44,499 bases of DNA from Candidatus Doudnabacteria bacterium (GTDB lineage Bacteria; Patescibacteriota; Doudnabacteria; UBA920): assembly GCA_003151625.1 (NCBI GenBank), contig PLYC01000029.1, positions 2,921 through 47,419 on the forward strand, given 5' to 3'. Made by a program: the position numbers and the translations under genes. Positions 3,402 to 37,933 of this stretch are shown here, in pieces (position 1 is the stretch's first letter; each line of letters begins with the position of its first letter). Below the pieces are notes generated by a model. The model was not told the origin of the DNA. It ran no database searches and was given only the letters and a program-made list of their open reading frames with translations.

Positions 3402-5222
3402 ATGTGTGGAATTGTTGGTTATATTGGTAAAAAACAAGCATTGCCAATCCTGCTTCAGGGATTGCGCGATTTGGAATATAGAGGATACGATTCGGCCGGA
3501 ATTGCGGTTCTTGATAATAGAAAAATTGATAGAGTCCGCGAAGTTGGTAAGGTGGATATGCTGGCCAAAAAAATTGGGCAGGATAAATTTGTGGGCACCA
3601 TTGGTATTGCCCATACCCGTTGGGCTACGCACGGGGGAGTTACGGAAAGCAACGCCCATCCCCATATTGTCGGGGAAGGGAAGTTGGTGTTAGTACACAA
3701 TGGGATTATTGAAAATTACCGGGAAATAAAAAAACAGCTTAAAAACCAACATCAGGAATCGGAAACCGATTCGGAAATTTTGGGACAGCTGATATTTGAA
3801 AATTATCAAGGTGACTTAATGAAAGCCGTAAAACAGGCTTTGTTGAAAGTGCGCGGTACTTATGGGATTGTGGTCATGCACGCGGATCATCCGAATCAGC
3901 TGGTTGCTGCGCGTTTGGGCAGTCCGTTATGTATTGGTATTGGAGACAAAGAATATTATATTGCCTCCGATGTTACGCCAATGCTGCCGTTTACCAAGCA
4001 GGTAACATTTTTGGACGACGGGGAAATTGCATCTATCAACGGTGATGGGTTAAAAATTTTGAATATGCGCGACGAGATTATCAACAAAACCGTGACCCAA
4101 ATAGACTGGGATCAGGCCAAAGCGCAAAAGGGGGGGTTTGAAAATTTTATGCTTAAGGAAATTTTTGATCAACCCACGGTGTTTGAAGACGCAATTCGCG
4201 GCAGGTTTAATGTCGACGAAGGAACGGCGGTTTTGGGCGGCCTGAATATGACCCTGGAACAGATGAGGGATATTAAGCGCGTGATGATAATCGCCGAGGG
4301 AACGGCTAGGCACGCCGGCCTAATTGCCAAATACGCTTTTGAGCGTTTGGCTAATTTGCCCACAGAGGTGGACTTTTCATCGGAATTTCGTTATCGCGAT
4401 CCGGTTGTCAATAAAAATACTTTAGTCTTCGTAATTTCGCAATCAGGAGAAACCGCGGATACCTTAATGGCAGCGCGTGAAGCCAAGCGCAAGGGTGCGG
4501 TTGTGAGGGGGATTGTTAATGTGGTCGGCTCAACAATCGCGCGCGAGACCAAAGCCGGAACATATATTCATGCCGGCCCGGAATTGGCCGTGGCTTCCAC
4601 CAAGGCCTATACCAATATGGTGGCGGTGCTGCTCCTATATGCTTTACAATTTGGTAGGATTAAGCATACTTCTTTGGCAACAGGCCAGAGATTGCTTCAG
4701 GGACTTTTGGAAATTCCGGAAAAAATGAATGAAATTTTAAAACAGACCGATAGTATCCAGAATATCGCGAAGCAATATCAGCAATATCACAATATCCTCT
4801 TTATGGGACGCGGCGTAAATTATCCGGTGGCTTTGGAAGGGGCACTGAAACTTGAAGAAATTTCCTATATCCATGCCGAAGGTTTGGCGGCCGGAGCCAT
4901 GAAGCATGGGCCGTTGGCGCTGATATCTAAAGATGTTCCCGTAGTTGCGATTTTAAGCAAAGACCAACTCTACGAAAAAATGAAATCTAGCATCCAGGAA
5001 GTCCGCGCCCGCGGCGCCCGCACTTTGGTCATTGCCACAGTGGGCGACGAAGAGGCAAAAGAGGTTGCGGATGATATAATATATGTCCCTGATACCATGG
5101 AACTCCTCGAGCCACTGTTAAACACTATTCCCCTGCAATTATTCGCCTATTACATAGCCGTGGCCTTAGGCCGCGATGTTGACAGGCCGAGGAATTTGGC
5201 GAAAAGCGTGACGGTGGAGTAA
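3402..5222 (+). CDS. glmS: Glutamine-fructose-6-phosphate aminotransferase (isomerizing)
   Basis: 606 residues, the usual full length. It makes glucosamine-6-phosphate from fructose-6-phosphate and glutamine, the first committed step to UDP-GlcNAc and peptidoglycan. MCGIVGYIG gives the catalytic Cys2 of the Ntn-type glutaminase domain (residues 1 to about 230). Two SIS sugar-isomerase domains follow (about 280-420 and 450-590; ISQSGETADTL in the first), and the C-terminus LAKSVTVE is the conserved active-site tail. No Shine-Dalgarno is seen; a TATAAA lies four bases before the ATG. A pyrophosphorylase and a YvcK-like protein of the same pathway lie downstream. Confidence 0.97.
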   Translation: MCGIVGYIGKKQALPILLQGLRDLEYRGYDSAGIAVLDNRKIDRVREVGKVDMLAKKIGQDKFVGTIGIAHTRWATHGGVTESNAHPHIVGEGKLVLVHNGIIENYREIKKQLKNQHQESETDSEILGQLIFENYQGDLMKAVKQALLKVRGTYGIVVMHADHPNQLVAARLGSPLCIGIGDKEYYIASDVTPMLPFTKQVTFLDDGEIASINGDGLKILNMRDEIINKTVTQIDWDQAKAQKGGFENFMLKEIFDQPTVFEDAIRGRFNVDEGTAVLGGLNMTLEQMRDIKRVMIIAEGTARHAGLIAKYAFERLANLPTEVDFSSEFRYRDPVVNKNTLVFVISQSGETADTLMAAREAKRKGAVVRGIVNVVGSTIARETKAGTYIHAGPELAVASTKAYTNMVAVLLLYALQFGRIKHTSLATGQRLLQGLLEIPEKMNEILKQTDSIQNIAKQYQQYHNILFMGRGVNYPVALEGALKLEEISYIHAEGLAAGAMKHGPLALISKDVPVVAILSKDQLYEKMKSSIQEVRARGARTLVIATVGDEEAKEVADDIIYVPDTMELLEPLLNTIPLQLFAYYIAVALGRDVDRPRNLAKSVTVE

Positions 5223-8336: not shown

Positions 8337-8380
8337 GTCATCCCGACCGACGAGTGCAGCCGAGGAGTGGAGGGATCCCT
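8337..8380. repeat. GTCATCC-type repeat in front of the phosphoketolase gene
   Basis: GTGTCATCCCGACCGACGAG followed by GGAGTGGAGGGATCCC, a truncated copy of the dispersed element. An in-frame ATG at 8367 lies inside it, which argues for the later start at 8400. Confidence 0.55.
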
Positions 8381-8399
8381 TATCTATAACGAGATAAAT

Positions 8400-11165
8400 A
8401 TGAATTCAATCTTAGAAAAAATAAATAAATATGTCCGCGCGGCAAATTATTTGACCGTAACACAAATTTATTTGCAGGACAATTTTTTGTTAAAAAGACC
8501 ACTTAAGGCCGAAGACATTAAACCCAAGCTGTTTGGCCATTGGGGAACTTGCCCGGGAATTAATTTTGTTTATGGGCATTTAAATTATTTGGTAAAAGAA
8601 CATAAGCAATCAACAGTCTTTGTGCTTGGACCCGGACACGGCATGCCGGGGCTCCAGGCGAATTTATTTTTGGAAGGCACGCTCGGCCAATACTATAAAG
8701 ACGCAAGCCTTAATGAAAAAGGCATAGGGTATATTTCCAAAATGTTCGCGTGGCCATACGGCTTTTCCAGCCACTGTAGTCCTGAAACCCCGGGCCTTAT
8801 CTTGGAAGGCGGAGAGCTTGGTTATTCCCTGTCCAGTGCTTATGGTGCCGTACTTGATAATCCGGATTTATTAGCCGCTGTTTTAATTGGAGACGGCGAA
8901 GCGGAAACCGGTCCCATTGCGGCCTCCTGGCATATCAACAAACTCGTTAATCCAGCAACCAGCGGGGCGGTGTTGCCGATTTTGCATTTAAACGGTTATA
9001 AAATTTCTGGACCGACAATTTTTGGCAGGATGAGCGACATTGAGTTAAAAAACCTTTTTGAAGGCTATGGCTATGAACCATTTTTTGTGGGCGGTGAGAA
9101 TATTAACGAACGGATGTTCGAGACCCTTGAAAAGTGTTATAAGAAAATCACAGACATCCAAAAGGCGGCGCGCAACGGAAAAATTTTTAACCCGATTTTT
9201 CCCATGATAATTATGCGTTCCCCAAAAGGCTGGACCACAGTTAAGGAATTGAGGGGACAGCAAATAGAAGGCACAATTTTAGCCCACCAGGTTGTGATGC
9301 CCACCGTAAAAGGCGACGAGCAGGAGTTAAGGGCACTTGAAGAGTGGCTGAGATCTTACCATTTTGAAGAGCTTTTTGATCCAAGAAAAGGATTTATCCA
9401 GGATATTTTTGATGTTGTTCCAGAAGGTAACTTGTTAATGGGCAATAATCCCCATATGTTTGGTAAAAATTATAAGCCTTTGGTTTTGCCTAAGGCCGAA
9501 CAGATGGCCAAAGACGCTTCCATCCCGGGCAAAATCCAGTCAAACTCCATGCGTATGGCCGGCGGCTTTTTAAAAGAGATATTTGCTTTAAACAGGGGGC
9601 AAAAGAATTTTAGGCTTATGTCCCCCGATGAAACTTACTCAAACCGCTTAGACGATGTATTTCAGGAAACCGCCAGGGGATTTGTCTGGCCGTTTGACGG
9701 AAGCGATAAAGATATGTCGCGTGACGGCCGTGTAATGGAAATGCTGTCGGAGCATAATATGCACGGGTTGGCCCAAGGTTATGTGCTCACGGGCAGACAC
9801 GCGGTGTTTACCACTTATGAAGCTTTCGCTCAGATTTTTTCCAGCATGGCTCATATGTACCAGAAGTTTTTAAAGTATGTCCGTTTAATGCCCTGGAGGC
9901 AGGACATCCCTTCTTTGAATTATCTTTTGACTTCCACCGCGTGGCGGCAGGAGCACAACGGTTATTCCCATCAAAATCCTGGTTTTATTTCCGGCATGCT
10001 GGAAAAACACAACGATTTTATAAAAGTATATTTTCCGGTTGACGACAACAGCATGCTTGCGGTTTTGGAAGAATCCATGCCGTCTAAAAATCAGATGAAT
10101 ATTATTACAGCCGGAAAAACTCCGGAGCCCCGCTGGCTTAGTTTGGAGCAGGCGCGAAACGCTTTAAAAGACGGACTGTTGACCTGGAATTTTTTGAGCG
10201 ATGAAAATCCGGATTTGGTTTTGGTGGGTATTGGGGACTATGTCACCAAAGAAGCTGTTGCCGCTTTGGAAATAATAAAAAAAGATGCGCCCGAAATTAA
10301 AATCCGCTTTGTAAATGTTGTAAGGCTGCAGGCCGCGTGCGGATGTAAAGATGAATTCCATCCCCAGATTCCCAACGCGGAAAAGTATTTTACCCTGGAT
10401 AAGCCCGTTATTATTAATTTTCACGGCTATCCGGAAGCAATGCAATCCATTTTGTTTAAGCTAAAAAATCCGTCGCGTTTTTCCGTGCATGGTTACATTG
10501 AAGAGGGGGGAACGACCACGGCGTTTGATATGCAGGTTCGCAATAAAACAGACCGCTACACTTTGGCGGTTGAGATTTTAAAAACCATGGCGCAAGAAGG
10601 CGTTATTTTCGAGGAGAAGAAAGTTTTTCTTACAGCAAAATACCAAAAAGTACTTGAAAATCATAATATTTTTATCAAAAAATTTGGTATGGATCCCGCG
10701 GAATTGGAAAATTGGCAATGGGCGGGAAAAATGCCGGAGACATTGAACAGACAAAATATTGAGCACGGCGCTATTTTGCAAAATGCCAGAACAATAGCTT
10801 TTATTGGGCTTTCCGATAACCCTCAGCGCCATAGCCACCAGGTGGCAAAGTATTTTCAGGAGAAGGGCTACCGAATTATTCCCATCAACCCAAATATAGC
10901 CGAAGTTTTGGGAGAGAAGTCCTATAAGAGCCTTTTGGATATTCCCAAAGGCATACACATAGATATTGTTGATATTTTCAGAAAGCCGGAGGAAGTTGTG
11001 GCGCATATGAAAGAAGTTATGGAGCGGGGCAATATAAAGACCGTATGGCTTGCCGAGGGCGTAAACAGCACTCTTGCCGAAGAGTTTGCCGAAGACTACG
11101 GCCTGTCCATGGTCACGAACTTTTGTATTATGGATGCGTATAAGAAAATTGAATTAACAAAATAA
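8400..11165 (+). CDS. Phosphoketolase fused to a C-terminal CoA-binding domain
   Basis: 921 residues from the ATG at 8400. Residues 1 to about 790 are a complete xylulose-5-phosphate/fructose-6-phosphate phosphoketolase: HWGTCPGINFVYGHLN, GPGHGMPGLQANLFLEG, the family signature EGGELGYSLSSAYGAVLDNP and the thiamine-diphosphate motif GDGEAETGPIAASWHINKL. It cleaves the sugar phosphate to acetyl phosphate plus a shorter aldose phosphate. Residues about 795-921 form a separate Rossmann domain of the YccU-like CoA_binding_2 type (IAFIGLSDNPQRHSHQVAKY, IIPINPN, VDIFRKPEEV, VWLAEGV). Ordinary phosphoketolases of about 790 residues stop before it. The fusion suggests acetyl-phosphate production coupled to CoA sensing or acyl transfer; this is inference. 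Confidence 0.93.
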   Translation: MNSILEKINKYVRAANYLTVTQIYLQDNFLLKRPLKAEDIKPKLFGHWGTCPGINFVYGHLNYLVKEHKQSTVFVLGPGHGMPGLQANLFLEGTLGQYYKDASLNEKGIGYISKMFAWPYGFSSHCSPETPGLILEGGELGYSLSSAYGAVLDNPDLLAAVLIGDGEAETGPIAASWHINKLVNPATSGAVLPILHLNGYKISGPTIFGRMSDIELKNLFEGYGYEPFFVGGENINERMFETLEKCYKKITDIQKAARNGKIFNPIFPMIIMRSPKGWTTVKELRGQQIEGTILAHQVVMPTVKGDEQELRALEEWLRSYHFEELFDPRKGFIQDIFDVVPEGNLLMGNNPHMFGKNYKPLVLPKAEQMAKDASIPGKIQSNSMRMAGGFLKEIFALNRGQKNFRLMSPDETYSNRLDDVFQETARGFVWPFDGSDKDMSRDGRVMEMLSEHNMHGLAQGYVLTGRHAVFTTYEAFAQIFSSMAHMYQKFLKYVRLMPWRQDIPSLNYLLTSTAWRQEHNGYSHQNPGFISGMLEKHNDFIKVYFPVDDNSMLAVLEESMPSKNQMNIITAGKTPEPRWLSLEQARNALKDGLLTWNFLSDENPDLVLVGIGDYVTKEAVAALEIIKKDAPEIKIRFVNVVRLQAACGCKDEFHPQIPNAEKYFTLDKPVIINFHGYPEAMQSILFKLKNPSRFSVHGYIEEGGTTTAFDMQVRNKTDRYTLAVEILKTMAQEGVIFEEKKVFLTAKYQKVLENHNIFIKKFGMDPAELENWQWAGKMPETLNRQNIEHGAILQNARTIAFIGLSDNPQRHSHQVAKYFQEKGYRIIPINPNIAEVLGEKSYKSLLDIPKGIHIDIVDIFRKPEEVVAHMKEVMERGNIKTVWLAEGVNSTLAEEFAEDYGLSMVTNFCIMDAYKKIELTK

Positions 11166-11168
11166 TTT

Positions 11169-12185
11169 ATGAGTAAGATTATGTCCCGCGAAGCGGGATC
11201 CCGCTTTGCGGGAAAGAACATTGTAATTATAGGCGGCGGAACCGGAACTTCCACTTTACTTCAGGGTTTAAAAAAATATCCTGTGGATTTGTCGGTTATA
11301 GTTTCCACTGCTGACGACGGAGGGTCAACGGGGATTTTAAGAAAAGAACTGGGGGTTATTCCGCCGGGGGATATCCGCCAGTGCCTTTTGGCGCTTTCAG
11401 ATGTGCCAAAAGAGGTTAAAGAATTGTTTAACTTTCGCTTTTCTTCCGGCAAGCTCAAAGGACACAACGCGGGAAATATTATTTTAGCCGCTTTGGAAAA
11501 AATATCGGGAATAGAAGAAGGGGTGAGTTTGGCAAGCAAGATGCTGAATGTCCGCGGACAGGTTTTGCCTGTATCGTTAACCCCAACTACTCTCTCGGCA
11601 ATTTTGCAAAACGGAAAAAAAATAGTCGGTGAGCATTTTATAGACGATAGAAAGCCCATAGGCAAAGCCTCTCCGATTAAAAATCTGCGGCTTTCTGCCG
11701 CCAAGGCAAACCCTCGGGCGCTTAAGGCTTTAGGCGAGGCCGATGCCATCGTTTTTGGACCGGGGGATTTGTATACCAGCGTCTTGCCAAGTTTGTTGGT
11801 CAGCGGTATCAACGGAGCCATAAACAGGTCAAAGGCAAAGAAACTTTTGGTAACCAACATTATGACCAAATTCGGTCAGACGGACGGCTTTAAAGCCTCG
11901 GACTTTGTAACGGAAACAGAAGCCTATCTTAAGGGGAAAATTGACTATGTTTTGGCAAATAATAAAAAGCCAAGCCAAGAAATTTTAAGGAAGTATGTAA
12001 AAGAAAAAGCCGAGTTTGTGGAAACGGATATTAACGCTTTGGCTAAAACCAAAGCCGAAACGATTGCCCTGAATCTATTATCGGACAGTATTATTAAAAA
12101 AACAGCAGGTGATAGCCTAAAAAGAAGCTGGCTTAGACATGATTCCGAAAAACTTGCTAAAATAATTTGGGAATTAATTAGTTAA
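11169..12185 (+). CDS. yvcK: YvcK/CofD-like protein (UDP-GlcNAc-binding gluconeogenesis factor)
   Basis: 338 residues. The nucleotide-binding motif IGGGTGTSTLLQGLK near residues 20-34 and STADDGGSTGILRKELG, then PPGDIRQCLLALS, are hallmarks of the YvcK/CofD-like fold. YvcK binds UDP-sugars and supports cell-wall growth on gluconeogenic substrates in Firmicutes. It starts three bases after the phosphoketolase stop, without a clear Shine-Dalgarno. Its N-terminus MSKIM is followed by SREAGSRFAGK, encoded by a palindromic repeat (11184-11213), and the normal first strand (NIVIIGGG) begins only after it. An alternative is an unrelated CofD-like transferase, less likely without F420 genes. Confidence 0.88.
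   Translation: MSKIMSREAGSRFAGKNIVIIGGGTGTSTLLQGLKKYPVDLSVIVSTADDGGSTGILRKELGVIPPGDIRQCLLALSDVPKEVKELFNFRFSSGKLKGHNAGNIILAALEKISGIEEGVSLASKMLNVRGQVLPVSLTPTTLSAILQNGKKIVGEHFIDDRKPIGKASPIKNLRLSAAKANPRALKALGEADAIVFGPGDLYTSVLPSLLVSGINGAINRSKAKKLLVTNIMTKFGQTDGFKASDFVTETEAYLKGKIDYVLANNKKPSQEILRKYVKEKAEFVETDINALAKTKAETIALNLLSDSIIKKTAGDSLKRSWLRHDSEKLAKIIWELIS
11184..11213. repeat. In-frame GGGATCC palindrome at the start of yvcK
   Basis: 30-base near-perfect palindrome centred on GGGATCCC (TCCCGCGAAGCG on the left, TTTGCGGGA on the right). It encodes SREAGSRFAG. Same family as the elements in GAPDH and rpoD. Confidence 0.85.
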
Positions 12186-12604: not shown

Positions 12605-13345
12605 ATGCGCAATCAGATTGTTATACTCGCTGCCGGCAAAGGAACAAGGATGGGCAACCCCAAGGTACCCAAGGTTTTGGTAATGCTAAAAAATAAACCG
12701 CTTATTTTGTACGTGCTGGAAGAAATGGAAAAAATTAACCAGCTGGCCAAGCCGGTGTTGGTGGTAGGCTTTGGAGCCGGAAAAGTCCAGCAGGTTTTGG
12801 GGAATAATTATCTTTATGCGTTTCAGGATAAACAGCTTGGTACCGCTCACGCTTTACAGGCGGCCAAAAATAAAGTTAAAGCGGAAAATATTTTGGTGCT
12901 TTACGGCGATATGCCGTTTATAAAAGCGGAGAGCCTAAAGGATTTAATCAAGCAACATTTTAAAAGCGGCTCCAAAGTCAGTATGCTGACCGCGGAGACA
13001 AAAAATTTTAAAGGCGGCAATGTTTCGCTGGAACATTACGGAAGGATTATCCGCAGTCCGGTCGGGGACATAGCCGGTATAGTAGAATACAAAGACGCTA
13101 CCGACGTTCAAAGGAAGCTTAAGGAAGTAAACCCCGGCATATATATGTTCCAAACTAAATGGCTTTGGGAGAACCTAAAGAAAATTGAAAATAAGAACAA
13201 GCAGAATGAATATTATTTAACGGACATTGTGCAAATTGCCCTAAGCCAGGGAGAGAAAATTAACTCCATTTTGGTTGACACCAAAGAGGTATTAGGAATT
13301 AACAGTAGGGAAGACCTACAGATAGCGGAGCAATTACTCAAATAA
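12605..13345 (+). CDS. GlmU-type N-acetylglucosamine-1-phosphate uridyltransferase (pyrophosphorylase domain only)
   Basis: 246 residues, matching only the N-terminal half of bifunctional GlmU. The nucleotide-binding motif is LAAGKGTRMGNPKVPKVL (residues about 8-25). FQDKQLGTAHALQAAKN is the uracil/sugar-binding QxxxLGTAHA motif, YGDMPF the metal-binding aspartate, and NPGIYMF and NEYYLTDIV complete the family pattern. It should make UDP-GlcNAc from GlcNAc-1-P and UTP, with GlmS supplying GlcN-6-P. The left-handed-helix acetyltransferase half is absent, so acetylation must be done elsewhere. It ends the run that began at 5323; a terminator follows at 13433. Confidence 0.87.
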   Translation: MRNQIVILAAGKGTRMGNPKVPKVLVMLKNKPLILYVLEEMEKINQLAKPVLVVGFGAGKVQQVLGNNYLYAFQDKQLGTAHALQAAKNKVKAENILVLYGDMPFIKAESLKDLIKQHFKSGSKVSMLTAETKNFKGGNVSLEHYGRIIRSPVGDIAGIVEYKDATDVQRKLKEVNPGIYMFQTKWLWENLKKIENKNKQNEYYLTDIVQIALSQGEKINSILVDTKEVLGINSREDLQIAEQLLK

Positions 13346-13463: not shown

Positions 13464-13503
13464 TTGACAAAATATAGTATGACATTGTATGATACTATCA
13501 TAC
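13464..13503 (+). promoter_or_regulatory. Promoter with GTATGA half-sites (RHH-type operator)
   Basis: TTGACA at 13464-13469, 18-base spacer, TATGAT at 13488-13493. GTATGACA (477-484 past 13000) and GTATGATA (487-494) are spaced 10 bases apart, and the second forms a perfect 17-base palindrome GTATGATACTATCATAC (487-503) over the -10 box. A protein bound there would block transcription. Ten-base spacing of short half-sites is typical of ribbon-helix-helix repressors. Related sites precede the RHH-fusion gene. Confidence 0.75.
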
Positions 13504-13512
13504 AGAGATAGG

Positions 13513-13564
13513 AGGCAGATGTGGGAGCCAAAGGTTAACTCTTTTGACTCCGCCATCTGCCTTT
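13513..13564 (+). other. Leader hairpin, copy 1
   Basis: GGCAGATG...CATCTGCC outer stem with inner GGAGCCAAAG pairing to TTTTGACTCC, followed by a short TTTTA. It resembles an attenuator. A sequence relative occurs at 15054-15094 on the other side of the aminotransferase gene. Confidence 0.65.
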
Positions 13565-13569: not shown

Positions 13570-13782
13570 CCGCTGAATTGACGCTGAAAAAATGTTCTTT
13601 AAAATATTGGGTATCTTTTGGCGGCAAGCGATAGGAGTCTATATTTAGATCCTTCACTTTGTTCAGGACGACAGAAATAAATTTCTGTCGCTTGCCGCTT
13701 GCCTCATATCGAGGGGAATGAGGCGAGGGGTGCCCTTAACCATAAGGGGGATGAATCTAGACTTAGAAAAGGGAGAACAGGG

Positions 13783-14943
13783 ATGTTAATACCAAATACG
13801 AACTATCGGGCCATGTTGGAAGCAGCGCGGCCTCATGAAGGATTTTGGCTTGATTGCGGCCTTGGGCATCCGGCTTTTGACGGTAACCCCGCGGGTGTTG
13901 CTGCTCTGGAATCGGTGCCTTGCTTGAAAGGCAGTAACCACTACGCATGTGAAGTGCCGAGCACTTTGAGTGACGCGATCATGGCTTTTGTTTTGCTTAT
14001 GTTCAAAGTCACGCTCAGCGAAAACCAGATTGCGGTACCGACTATCGGTACTCGCTGTGTACCTGGCTACATATCGCTTGAGTTTTTGGCTGAAAACCAC
14101 CGTCCAATGGTTTGGTTGGCGGAAGCGCCAGGCTATCCTGGCCACACGGTGGTTATCGATCAATACGGAGGAGTGTGCAAACGGGAGGCAACTCATGGCT
14201 TTGAATTCATTGACATCGTAGAGGCCATGGAAAATAAAGGACGGCTTCAAGAATACGACGCTGTAATTTTCCAAGCCGTGGTAAACCCTACCGCTAAGAG
14301 AACCTCTGATGGAGCAGTTCGCCGTATCGCAGAGTTCGCCGCACGCACCGGCAAGCTAGTTTATTTTGACGGAGCATACCAGTGCGTTACGCATGGAAGC
14401 CCGGTTCCAAGCCCTCTTCTTGAAGTTGGTAATCCGTATAGCAATATCATATGGACATACTCAACTTCCAAGGGAGATCAGCTGGCGTCGTTGGCCTACA
14501 GCTTGCTACTTGGAGACCCACGTTGGGTGGGCAAGTTTAGCAAGGTACAATCGGCAACTCGTGAAGGGGGCAGTATGGCTGGATACTCGGCGCTTGAAGC
14601 TTGTTTGAACAACCCAGGGTTTCTGATGGAAACCAGTCATGGGTATGACAGACTTCACCGGCTTTTGGCAAGTGCTCTCTCTCCCGCTGGGATGTTTGTG
14701 CCCAAGCGGGAAGGAAGCATTTTCGCATATGTGCCAATTCCCGAATGCTGGTGGGAAGCCGGTAAGGACTCGTATGACTTCGCTATGGAGTTGGCGCGGA
14801 ATGGAGTCCTAACTTATACTGACCGTCAGTTCAATGATTCAGGCAGACACCTGCGTGTTAACCTGTCTAGTTTCTTGGATGTCCCGCGGGTTCGCGATCG
14901 TCTAACAGAAGTTGTGGCTAGCACAAATCGTATGTACAACTAG
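13783..14943 (+). CDS. PLP-dependent aminotransferase, fold type I
   Basis: 386 residues from the ATG at 13783, chosen for the GGGAGAACAGGG ribosome site; an ATG at 13699 lies within the structured leader. The order of fold-type I landmarks is present: Asn in AVVNPTAKRT near 167, Asp196 and Tyr199 in VYFDGAYQ (binding pyridine N and O3'), the Schiff-base Lys230 in YSTSKGDQLAS, and a C-terminal Arg in HLRVNLSS near 358 for the substrate carboxylate. It fits class I/II aminotransferases; the substrate is unknown. Balanced base composition and its own promoter mark it off from the neighbours. It lies between two related hairpins and next to an RHH-fusion regulator candidate. Confidence 0.85.
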   Translation: MLIPNTNYRAMLEAARPHEGFWLDCGLGHPAFDGNPAGVAALESVPCLKGSNHYACEVPSTLSDAIMAFVLLMFKVTLSENQIAVPTIGTRCVPGYISLEFLAENHRPMVWLAEAPGYPGHTVVIDQYGGVCKREATHGFEFIDIVEAMENKGRLQEYDAVIFQAVVNPTAKRTSDGAVRRIAEFAARTGKLVYFDGAYQCVTHGSPVPSPLLEVGNPYSNIIWTYSTSKGDQLASLAYSLLLGDPRWVGKFSKVQSATREGGSMAGYSALEACLNNPGFLMETSHGYDRLHRLLASALSPAGMFVPKREGSIFAYVPIPECWWEAGKDSYDFAMELARNGVLTYTDRQFNDSGRHLRVNLSSFLDVPRVRDRLTEVVASTNRMYN

Positions 14944-15053
14944 TGCAAATCACACTTTCAAAACCTTTTTTTGTTACAACGCGGCGGGTGGACAGCTGGA
15001 GAGTTCTCGCAAGAGAATTCAGCCAGCCTCCTCCCGCCAAGTCACTTCAGCCC

Positions 15054-15094
15054 CGGATGCTGGGGCCAAAGGTAAAACTTTGGCTCCACCATCT
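15054..15094 (+). other. Leader hairpin, copy 2
   Basis: TGGGGCCAAAG pairs with CTTTGGCTCCA around GTAAAA; GATG and CATC extend it. The sequence aligns with 13513-13564 (GATG, GGGAGCCAAAGGTTAA, GACTCCGCCATCTG), so the two hairpins bracket the aminotransferase gene. Confidence 0.65.
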
Positions 15095-15118
15095 GTTGCT
15101 GAACAAAAAGGGGCATTC

Positions 15119-15152
15119 TGGACATTTTTATACTGTATGATATAGTATGATG
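15119..15152 (+). promoter_or_regulatory. Promoter with two GTATGAT half-sites
   Basis: TGGACA at 15119-15124 and TATAGT at 15141-15146 (16-base spacer), overlapped by GTATGATA at 15135-15142 and GTATGATG at 15145-15152, again 10 bases apart. The same half-site and spacing occur at 13477-13494. Confidence 0.65.
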
Positions 15153-15178: not shown

Positions 15179-16045
15179 ATGAACAGGGAGCGTTTAACAA
15201 TCACTTTAAGAAACGATCTTTTAAAGGCTTTGGACGGGGAAATTGACGGGGAAAGGCTTCGGAACAGGAGCCATGCTATTGAGTATTTTTTGTCCCGTTC
15301 TTTGGGATTAAAAACAGTAAAGGTTTTAATCTTGGCCGGAGGCAAGCCCGTATATTTTGAAAGCGAACAAAAAGCTTTGCCTAAGGCAATGGTAAAAATT
15401 GCGGGCAAGCCGTTATTAGAACAAACTTTACACAGACTTAAAACTGCCAAGCTTACGGAAATTTATATCTCTTTAGGCGAGGGCGGCGAAATAATAGAAG
15501 ATTATTTTGGCGATGGCAGTAAACTAGGATTAAATATTACGTACATCCAGCAGAAGAGCGGATGCTTGGGAAACGCCCAGCCGCTGCTCCAGGCAAAAAA
15601 GTTTTTTAACAGCGGATTTTTACTTCTTTATGGGGACGTGCTTTCCGACATCGACTATGGTGATTTTGTGGAATTCCATCGCAACCAAAAAGCCGCGGTT
15701 TGTACCATGGCGCTTACCAGTACGGAAGCTGTTGATATGTGGGGGTTGGCCAGGCTCCAGGGCAACAGGATAGTGGAGTTTGAAGAAAAGCCAAAAAATC
15801 CCAAAACTTTTTCCCGTTTAGTAAATGCCGGAATTTATTTAATGGAGCCGGAGATGTTTAGCTTAATTAGTGTTAAAGCAAACCCGTCTCGCCCGAGGCG
15901 AGCCGAGGCGGACAAACTGGAAAGCGATGTGTTTCCTCGTTTGGCGGAAGAAGGCAGGCTGTTTGGTTACCCGTACGAAGGGCTTTGGCTGGATATTTCA
16001 AACAGTGCGGCGTATCGACAGGCCGTCAAAGAGTTTAAAGGTTAA
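15179..16045 (+). CDS. Ribbon-helix-helix domain fused to sugar-nucleotidyltransferase-like domain
   Basis: 288 residues. Residues about 1-43 form an RHH DNA-binding unit: strand RLTITLR, helix NDLLKALDGEI and helix SHAIEYFLSRSLG. Residues 47-288 follow the NTP-transferase fold of glucose-1-phosphate thymidylyl/mannose-1-phosphate guanylyl transferases (VKVLILAGG, LPKAMVKIAGKPLLEQTL, LLYGDVLSDID, IVEFEEKPKNP, VNAGIYLMEPEMF). The GTR of the usual GGxGTR loop is replaced (GGKPVYFESEQKALPK), and the LGTAG motif reads LGNAQ, so catalysis may be lost. A nucleotide-sugar-responsive repressor is plausible. Residues near 237-246 (PSRPRRAEAD) come from an in-frame repeat. No Shine-Dalgarno is seen. 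Confidence 0.82.
   Translation: MNRERLTITLRNDLLKALDGEIDGERLRNRSHAIEYFLSRSLGLKTVKVLILAGGKPVYFESEQKALPKAMVKIAGKPLLEQTLHRLKTAKLTEIYISLGEGGEIIEDYFGDGSKLGLNITYIQQKSGCLGNAQPLLQAKKFFNSGFLLLYGDVLSDIDYGDFVEFHRNQKAAVCTMALTSTEAVDMWGLARLQGNRIVEFEEKPKNPKTFSRLVNAGIYLMEPEMFSLISVKANPSRPRRAEADKLESDVFPRLAEEGRLFGYPYEGLWLDISNSAAYRQAVKEFKG
15884..15913. repeat. In-frame PSRPxRAEADK-type element
   Basis: CCCGTCTCGCCCGAGGCGAG then CCGAGGCGGAC, read in frame as PSRPRRAEADK. The same GC-rich element occurs in the PadR gene (37890-37920), in the endonuclease Q-like gene (19029-19060), and in part at 41231-41268. Confidence 0.8.
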
Positions 16046-16125: not shown

Positions 16126-17187
16126 ATGACCATGGAAAAAAAGTCCCGCGGAGCGGGATCCGGCTCCGCCGGAAAAAAAATAAAAATTGCCATTAACGGC
16201 CTTGGTAGGATCGGCCGGGTGTTTTTAAGGATTGCCCACGATAACCCGAATTTTGAAATAGTCGCGGCTCATAGCCGCAGTGGCCTAGATATGTACGCCC
16301 ATTTGCTCAAGTACGATACCGCTTATGGCGTTTGGGACAGGGAAGTAAAAGTTAAAGGCAAAAATTTGATTATAGACGGGAAAAACATTCCGTTTATTTC
16401 CGATACTAACGGCCACCTTCCCTGGAAGAGGTTGGGAGTTGATATTGTCATAGACGCAACCGGCAAATATACCAAGCGTCCCGAAGCGGCTAAGCATTTG
16501 GAAGATGGAGCTAAATACGTTGTGGCCACAGCCCCAATGGACGATGCCGACGAAACCTTGGTTTTTAGGGCCAACCACCAGAAATTTGACCCAAAGAACC
16601 ATCACATTGTGTCCGCCGGTTCCTGCACCACGGTTTGCAGTACATTAACCATAAAAGTTTTAGAAGAAAATTTTGGTCTAAAGCAGGGTTACATTAATAC
16701 GGTACACGCGGTAACCGGAGACCAAATGCTGCTGGACGGCAGCCACAAAGATTTGCGTCGTGCCCGCGCCGCCGGAGAATCTATTATCCCGACCACCACA
16801 GGCGTCAGTAAGACCATTACCAAATTATATCCGCACCTAAAAGGGAAAATTTCGGCTTTGTCTTTACGTGTGCCGGTGTTAAATCCATCTGTCGTGGTTC
16901 TGACCGCGGAACTAAAAAAAGCCACCACTTTGCAAGCCTTAAACAAAGCTTTTGCCAAGGCCAGCGTTGGGGAGCTAAAAGGAAGTTTGGGGGTAAATAA
17001 TTTGCCTTTGGTTTCCACCGATTTCCGCGCCAACCCCAACGGCGCAATAGTTGACCTGTTCAGCAACGAAGTCGTAGACGGCCGCCTGGTCAACATTTTA
17101 GCCTGGTATGACAATGAATGGGGCTATGTCCAGCAAATGGTTTATTTGTTGGAATATATCTGCAAAAGGATTTCTGCTATAAAATAA
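16126..17187 (+). CDS. gap: Glyceraldehyde-3-phosphate dehydrogenase
   Basis: 353 residues, longer than the usual 330-340 because of an N-terminal addition: MTMEKK is followed by SRGAGSGSAGKK from a palindromic repeat, then the true Rossmann start IKIAINGLGRIGR. Catalytic Cys167 sits in SAGSCTTVC and His194 in NTVHAVTGDQ. DGSHKDLRRARAAGESIIP and the C-terminal WYDNEWGY are conserved. The loop after strand 2 reads EIVAAHSRSGLD, where NAD-linked enzymes have a conserved Asp (IND); Ser50 and Arg51 here hint at NADP(H) use. It oxidises or forms glyceraldehyde-3-phosphate in the lower glycolytic path that the pyruvate kinase and PEP synthase genes continue. Confidence 0.95.
   Translation: MTMEKKSRGAGSGSAGKKIKIAINGLGRIGRVFLRIAHDNPNFEIVAAHSRSGLDMYAHLLKYDTAYGVWDREVKVKGKNLIIDGKNIPFISDTNGHLPWKRLGVDIVIDATGKYTKRPEAAKHLEDGAKYVVATAPMDDADETLVFRANHQKFDPKNHHIVSAGSCTTVCSTLTIKVLEENFGLKQGYINTVHAVTGDQMLLDGSHKDLRRARAAGESIIPTTTGVSKTITKLYPHLKGKISALSLRVPVLNPSVVVLTAELKKATTLQALNKAFAKASVGELKGSLGVNNLPLVSTDFRANPNGAIVDLFSNEVVDGRLVNILAWYDNEWGYVQQMVYLLEYICKRISAIK
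16144..16173. repeat. In-frame GGGATCC palindrome at the start of gap
   Basis: TCCCGCGGAGCGGGATCC followed by GGCTCCGCCGGA; encodes SRGAGSGSAG. Same family as 11184-11213 and the rpoD elements. Confidence 0.85.
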
Positions 17188-37577: not shown

Positions 37578-37933
37578 AAATTTTTCCCTAAGTTAATAAT
37601 CGTCTTGTCAATTTTTTTCCAATAGTCGTTAAGCAAACCTAATTGTATGGCTCCTTTTTCGGTCAGGTGATAGTATTTGCGCGGCGGTCCGGCTTCGGAC
37701 TCCACCCATTCGTAGTCTACGGCGCCATCCTGTCTTAACCGCGAAAGCAGGGGATACAGCGTGCCCTCCTGGGTGGCAAATTCCGTGGATTTAAGAGTTT
37801 CCAAAATATTCGCAGCGTAAACCTTTTTGACCGATATGACTTGCAGAACGGCCAACTCCAACAACCCTTTGCGGATTGGTCCGAATTTGTCCGCCTCGGC
37901 TCGCGCCGGGCGAGACGGGTCATTTATTTCCAT
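37574..37933 (-). CDS. PadR-family transcriptional regulator
   Basis: 119 residues. The winged helix runs from GLLELAVLQVISVKKVYAANILETL through TQEGTLYPLLSRLRQDGAVDYEW to GPPRKYYHLTEKGAIQL, the typical PadR pattern. The N-terminus carries NDPSRPARAEADKFGP, coded by a GC-rich repeat (37890-37920) inserted just after the start; related PadR proteins begin directly at the RKGLLEL helix. First gene of the operon with the PspC-domain gene. A symmetric site upstream (37955-37978) is a likely operator, so it probably controls itself and the PspC protein. Confidence 0.92.
   Translation of the reverse strand: MEINDPSRPARAEADKFGPIRKGLLELAVLQVISVKKVYAANILETLKSTEFATQEGTLYPLLSRLRQDGAVDYEWVESEAGPPRKYYHLTEKGAIQLGLLNDYWKKIDKTIINLGKNL
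37890..37920. repeat. In-frame PSRPARAEADK element in padR-type gene
   Basis: TCCGCCTCGGCTCGC facing GGGCGAGACGGGT around GCC; read on the minus strand as PSRPARAEADK. Confidence 0.8.

Follow-up and report, generated by a model that had tools for sequence, protein, structure and literature searches.

A ribbon-helix-helix–nucleotidyltransferase fusion with an altered catalytic loop in Doudnabacteria, a possible autogenous repressor sensing nucleotide sugars

The 44,499-nt stretch of a Candidatus Doudnabacteria genome analysed here (the window; GCA_003151625.1, contig PLYC01000029.1) contains a gene whose product joins a short, potentially DNA-binding N-terminus to a nucleotidyltransferase (NTase) body with an altered catalytic loop. 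The question raised by this locus is whether an enzyme domain has been reused as the ligand sensor of a transcriptional repressor, as was suggested by the original prediction made from the sequence alone. The features considered are listed in Table 1.

Table 1. Features of the window and its genome that bear on the function of the fusion protein.
Feature	Position	Strand	Remarks
GlmS	3402-5222		identified by reading the ORF
YvcK	11169-12185		named UDP-GlcNAc-binding by the family model
GlmU-type uridylyltransferase	12605-13345
Second operator (putative)	13477..13503	+	GTATGACATTGTATGATACTATCATAC; combines a direct repeat with a perfect palindrome
PLP aminotransferase (Aminotran_1_2), candidate target	13699..14943	+	true start may be internal
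Putative promoter	15119..15146	+	TGGACA 15119-15124, 16-nt spacer, TATAGT 15141-15146; consensus match only
Auto-operator (putative), 10-bp direct repeat	15135..15151	+	GTATGATATAGTATGAT
RHH-nucleotidyltransferase fusion gene	15179..16045	+	288 aa; ORF exactly there
RHH domain, residues 1-45	15179..15313	+	NikR-like strand RLTITL; RNRSHA begins a helix
GT-A NTase domain, residues 46-288	15314..16042	+	GTR lost; D153, D272, K69, E203, K204 kept
Altered catalytic loop, residues 53-64	15335..15370	+	AGGKPVYFESEQ where enzymes read AGGxGTRLRPLT
GAPDH	at 16126		beyond the fusion gene
Remote PLP aminotransferase orthologue, genome of the window	G000 C5:73346-74542		GTATGACAGTATCATAC just upstream

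The N-terminal 43 residues had been proposed to form a ribbon-helix-helix (RHH) unit. Taken singly, the sequence matches the Pfam model RHH_1 over its first 43–45 residues below threshold (E = 0.09). This doubt is removed by the homologues and the structural model. RHH_1 is recognised at E ≤ 0.01 in 20 of 48 full-length homologues, and a profile built from 22 sequences of the N-terminal 47 residues has E. coli NikR as its best PDB match (E = 2e-6). In the AlphaFold structure prediction, helices at residues 12–21 and 30–45 follow an extended N-terminus (mean pLDDT 90.4); the model is a monomer, and the beta ribbon requires a dimer. A strand region, two helices of RHH length, and recognition by family profiles thus place this N-terminus in the RHH superfamily, as proposed. 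The R-x-T-x-T strand and the RNRSHA motif are nearly invariant over the phylum-wide fusions. In NikR, Arg3, Thr5, and Thr7 contact operator bases, and R-x-T-x-T is likewise present in the fusion protein.

The remaining part of the protein matches NTP_transferase (PF00483; E = 1.5e-31, residues 48–284) and resembles structures of UGP, RmlA, MurU, and GMPP, with TM-scores of up to 0.87 by target length. It possesses the GT-A fold, both metal-ligand positions (D153 and D272), and the lysines of the PK and EKP motifs (K69 and K204) characteristic of pyrophosphorylases, as well as E203 and G218. Fold and metal Asp are therefore retained, and the proposed loss of GTR from GGxGTR is evident: KPVYF stands in its place, the loop (GGKPVYF) lacks the GxG(T/S)R signature, and a basic residue is missing from the GTR position in the lineage of the window (GGKPVYFESE). 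The proposed loss of TAG from LGTAG has to be narrowed. The window protein reads LGNAQ, but GTAQ is found in most order-level relatives, which leaves the T-to-N change as the one peculiarity of the subclade of the window. Decay into a pseudogene is ruled out by the low dN/dS, a sign of purifying selection. The value for the NTase domain is ~0.04 in L033/L034, the single unsaturated pair, and does not exceed ~0.1 in pairs with finite, near-saturated dS, while dS is saturated in most pairs compared. A 30-nt GC-rich in-frame insert (15884-15913; RPRRAEADK) is present in the NTase region and occurs a second time in another ORF (37889-37918); a different in-frame insert occupies the same place in the NTase of locus L027.

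The survey of other CPR genomes revealed full-length fusions in dozens of Patescibacteria. The gene occurs in 19 of 49 genomes of the class sample, and in the phylum sample 48 of 380 genomes have matches at E ≤ 1e-30, which include NTases lacking the RHH. At least 215 loci in named genomes encode a relative with the signature [ILV]RNRSHA[IVL]E. The 80 loci retained from these belong to Doudnabacteria (the window's closest relatives among named genomes), Uhr-, Buchanan-, Falkow-, Kerfeld-, Jackson-, and Gottesmanbacteria, others, and DPANN archaea (mostly Altiarchaeota). Intact-GTR fusions were present in several DPANN archaeal MAGs (L150, L155, L161, L168, L169, L173, L184, L190, and L203); gene exchange with CPR or mis-binning is a possible explanation for the DPANN fusions.

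GTR is absent in 80 of the 101 distinct fusions and intact in the other 21. Among the 80 GTR-less proteins, D153 is retained in 79, K69 in 78, and E203 and D272 in 76 each; every pocket residue counted besides GTR is retained in at least 95%. In an NTase tree built without the loop columns, GTRLRP, GVKMRP, GVKFRPLT, and fully degenerate loops fall in different clades, the window belonging to the fully degenerate one. Such a degenerate nucleotide-binding loop, and the fact that a fold can persist for oligomerisation alone, would suit an NTase part that binds no ligand and serves as a mere dimerisation scaffold of a constitutive autorepressor. Since a pure scaffold needs none of D153, K69, E203, K204, and D272, which are nearly invariant in the GTR-less proteins, we consider this reading improbable.

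Published mutants of related enzymes indicate what the loss of GTR may entail. In GalU, the T20M/R21H exchange lowers Vmax by about three orders of magnitude with a similar S0.5 for UTP, and raises the S0.5 for Glc-1P ~60-fold, i.e. weakens affinity; GalF, in which GTR is changed to GMH, keeps weak activity (PMC4643126). Loss of GTR can thus cost catalysis more than nucleotide binding, but does not spare the whole pocket. The weak activity of GalF also bears on another possibility, namely a bifunctional trigger enzyme comparable to PutA or NadR. The protein would then still be an active pyrophosphorylase despite its unusual loop and repress its own gene as well. Retention of the metal Asps and of the PK and EKP lysines agrees with this, as do the 21 intact-GTR fusions, several of them in glycolytic operons, and the conservative change from GTR to GVK in many relatives. 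Lysine replaces the GTR arginine in many class B relatives, and some activity may persist there. The lineage of the window, however, has lost any basic residue at this position, and exact operators (described below) accompany 40 of 80 GTR-less fusions vs 1 of 21 intact ones, although related sequences are non-independent. We regard an active trigger enzyme as unlikely here. The NTase domain appears to be catalytically disabled in the lineage of the window, while the intact-GTR members of the family may still be enzymes.

The GTATGA half-site, of NikR type, recurs upstream of the fusion gene, either as 10-bp direct repeats or as GTATGA-N5-TCATAC palindromes. Of 48 loci, 16 carry the exact pattern TATGAN5TATGA in the upstream 200 bp, with 21 sites vs 0.26 expected from the density in the rest of the same loci. 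In the enlarged set, 41 of 101 distinct fusions have an exact upstream site, and a plus-strand site occurs in 41 of these 41; the consensus is GTATGATAnnGTATGATA. About half of the GTR-less fusions have no exact site upstream, and in some species a palindromic site replaces the direct repeat. Often the repeat contains a -10-like hexamer that is preceded, at a distance of 15–19 nt, by a TTGACA-like box; in the window, the putative -10 box TATAGT sits inside the auto-operator. Promoter scores exceed those of shuffled upstream regions modestly (8.9 vs 8.2). Given this -10-like core, part of the motif may be a promoter signal.

A reversed control is misleading within upstream regions, because AGTATN5AGTAT belongs to the repeated operator; the sites were instead judged against genome-wide controls and the background density. 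Genome-wide, GTATGATANNNTATGA has 28 matches over 28 gene-bearing genomes (at least one in 18 of them), and its reversed pattern has none. It is absent from 28 of 30 genomes scored as gene-less. In one of the two exceptions, the site is directly followed by a copy of the fusion gene that a contig end truncates; in the other, a genome of 69% completeness, it precedes a HAD hydrolase gene. Incompleteness of the genomes blurs gene absence in this comparison, and the relatives are non-independent. Within the window's genome (1.5 Mb), the looser TATGAN5TATGA occurs twice, both times in the window (13478 and 15136), and the reversed control five times, so the evidence for this pattern lies in placement, not in count. 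Since the motif itself was derived from this gene family, semi-independent evidence comes only from the genome-wide searches, the gene-less genomes, and the remote target.

Two aminotransferase genes are candidate targets. The putative second operator overlaps a predicted -10 box in front of the adjacent aminotransferase gene, and this arrangement of an upstream site and an adjacent aminotransferase is common to the five species of the subclade. A palindrome also precedes the remote aminotransferase in the genome of the window (G000) and in G009 and G019, with near-matches in G015 and G018. This site is absent in G017, a congener without a detected fusion; in G010 and G016, the fusion is present and the remote aminotransferase has no site. 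The operator was also detected before HAD hydrolase genes (L124 and L035) in G013, where it adjoins a GlmU-type NTase, and in G001. The sub-cut-off Pfam score of the single sequence and the overlap with a -10-like sequence might suggest an ordinary enzyme variant whose N-terminus does not bind DNA, or whose nearby sites serve a different regulator. The remote footprint, together with the NikR profile match and the link between operator and gene presence, makes this very improbable.

The leaders of both genes in the window have further features. The stretch between the aminotransferase gene and the auto-operator (14960-15135) is strongly structured and RNA-like (MFE -82.6 kcal/mol, z -8.5); no Rfam family was detected at gathering thresholds in the leaders, including this one. 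A hairpin behind the 13477-13503 site, in the aminotransferase leader (13513-13562), is conserved in L028 and L029 and is possibly a leader control element. Further upstream (8367-11165), the window encodes a phosphoketolase that carries a fused CoA_binding_2 domain at its C-terminus.

In other genomes, the fusion gene adjoins gapdh, pgk, aldolase, and PfkB genes (aldolase and PfkB named from reading the sequences), so the family likely has a role near glycolysis. The loci of intact-GTR fusions L060, L062, L084, L085, and L086 lie within pgk-aldolase-PfkB operons, with YvcK and GAPDH upstream in L085 and L086; L086, though grouped with these loci, itself reads QAKRLRP, not GTRLRP. Inspection by eye did not recognise the GTATGA operator before the glycolytic operons of intact-GTR relatives.

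The fusion shares features with several known systems. Like NikR, it combines an N-terminal RHH with an R-x-T-x-T strand, a putative GTATGA half-site, and a predicted C-terminal ligand domain in the same chain. The E. coli NikR operator is GTATGA-N16-TCATAC (PMC7055735), whereas the putative sites of the fusion consist of direct repeats of 10 bp or of palindromes with a shorter spacer (GTATGA-N5-TCATAC; 11 bp, roughly one turn of the helix). The fusion also carries an NTase fold (PF00483 only) and no nickel-binding regulatory domain; orthology with NikR is ruled out by the absent metal-binding domain and the different operator spacing. PutA, an RHH fused to a proline-catabolic flavoenzyme, is an autogenous repressor (PMC5293562). 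The joining of RHH to an enzyme domain and an operator at its own promoter appear to be common to PutA and the fusion, but the enzyme fold differs, and PutA is catalytically active while the lineage of the window appears disabled.

GalF resembles the fusion in being a degenerate pyrophosphorylase homologue with changed GTR and low activity. GMPPA, which is among the fold matches, is a regulatory subunit of the human GMPPA/GMPPB complex, of which GDP-mannose-bound structures have been solved. Both act by protein contact and, unlike the fusion, are without a DNA-binding domain. RmlA, MurU, and UGP (PF00483) share the GT-A fold and the PK, GD, EKP, NAG, and W-x-D motifs; the fusion differs from them in the lost GxGTR and the gained N-terminal RHH. 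A toxin-antitoxin system is ruled out, since RHH and NTase form one conserved chain located by central-metabolism genes and the fold is GT-A; toxin NTases have a Pol-beta type fold.

We probably deal with an autogenous repressor whose disabled NTase pocket would sense a metabolite, which is the best reading of the sequence evidence. The protein, as a dimer or higher oligomer, would bind GTATGA half-sites through its RHH head and repress its own gene. Bound to sites overlapping the -10 box or directly behind it, the protein would block its own promoter and likewise those of the adjacent and remote aminotransferase genes. The NTase body would descend from an active NDP-sugar pyrophosphorylase. 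Because the phosphate-binding and catalytic arginine of GTR was lost while metal, sugar, and phosphate-binding residues remain, its pocket could bind a nucleotide sugar, or a sugar-1-phosphate with an NTP, without turnover, and occupancy would alter operator affinity. For the originally predicted sugar-nucleotide-sensing repressor, DNA binding and autoregulation are strongly inferred from the gene-linked, phylum-wide operator footprint and the NikR-like recognition strand. The reuse of an enzyme as a sensor is supported by graded GTR loss with a preserved pocket and by the GalU and GalF mutants, and a nucleotide sugar as ligand is plausible from the fold. Since GlmS, a GlmU-type uridylyltransferase, and YvcK are encoded nearby, our guess for the lineage of the window is a UDP-amino-sugar such as UDP-GlcNAc.

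We give an even chance to the broader proposal of a CPR-wide group of RHH repressors whose NTase lost catalysis in steps, the loop passing from GTR via GVK to a form lacking basic residues, and became a metabolite sensor; each would control its own gene, aminotransferase genes, and perhaps genes of glycolysis. The open-licence literature yielded no paper on RHH-nucleotidyltransferase fusions, which is weak evidence of novelty; to our knowledge, this would be the first RHH regulator in which a dead NTase pocket senses a nucleotide sugar. Regulation of transcription in CPR bacteria is little known, and here a family, its putative operator, and candidate targets are named together from sequence. 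Binding, ligand, and catalysis are each directly testable. Given the intermediates between intact and degenerate loops, the transition from enzyme to sensor may be readable from living relatives.
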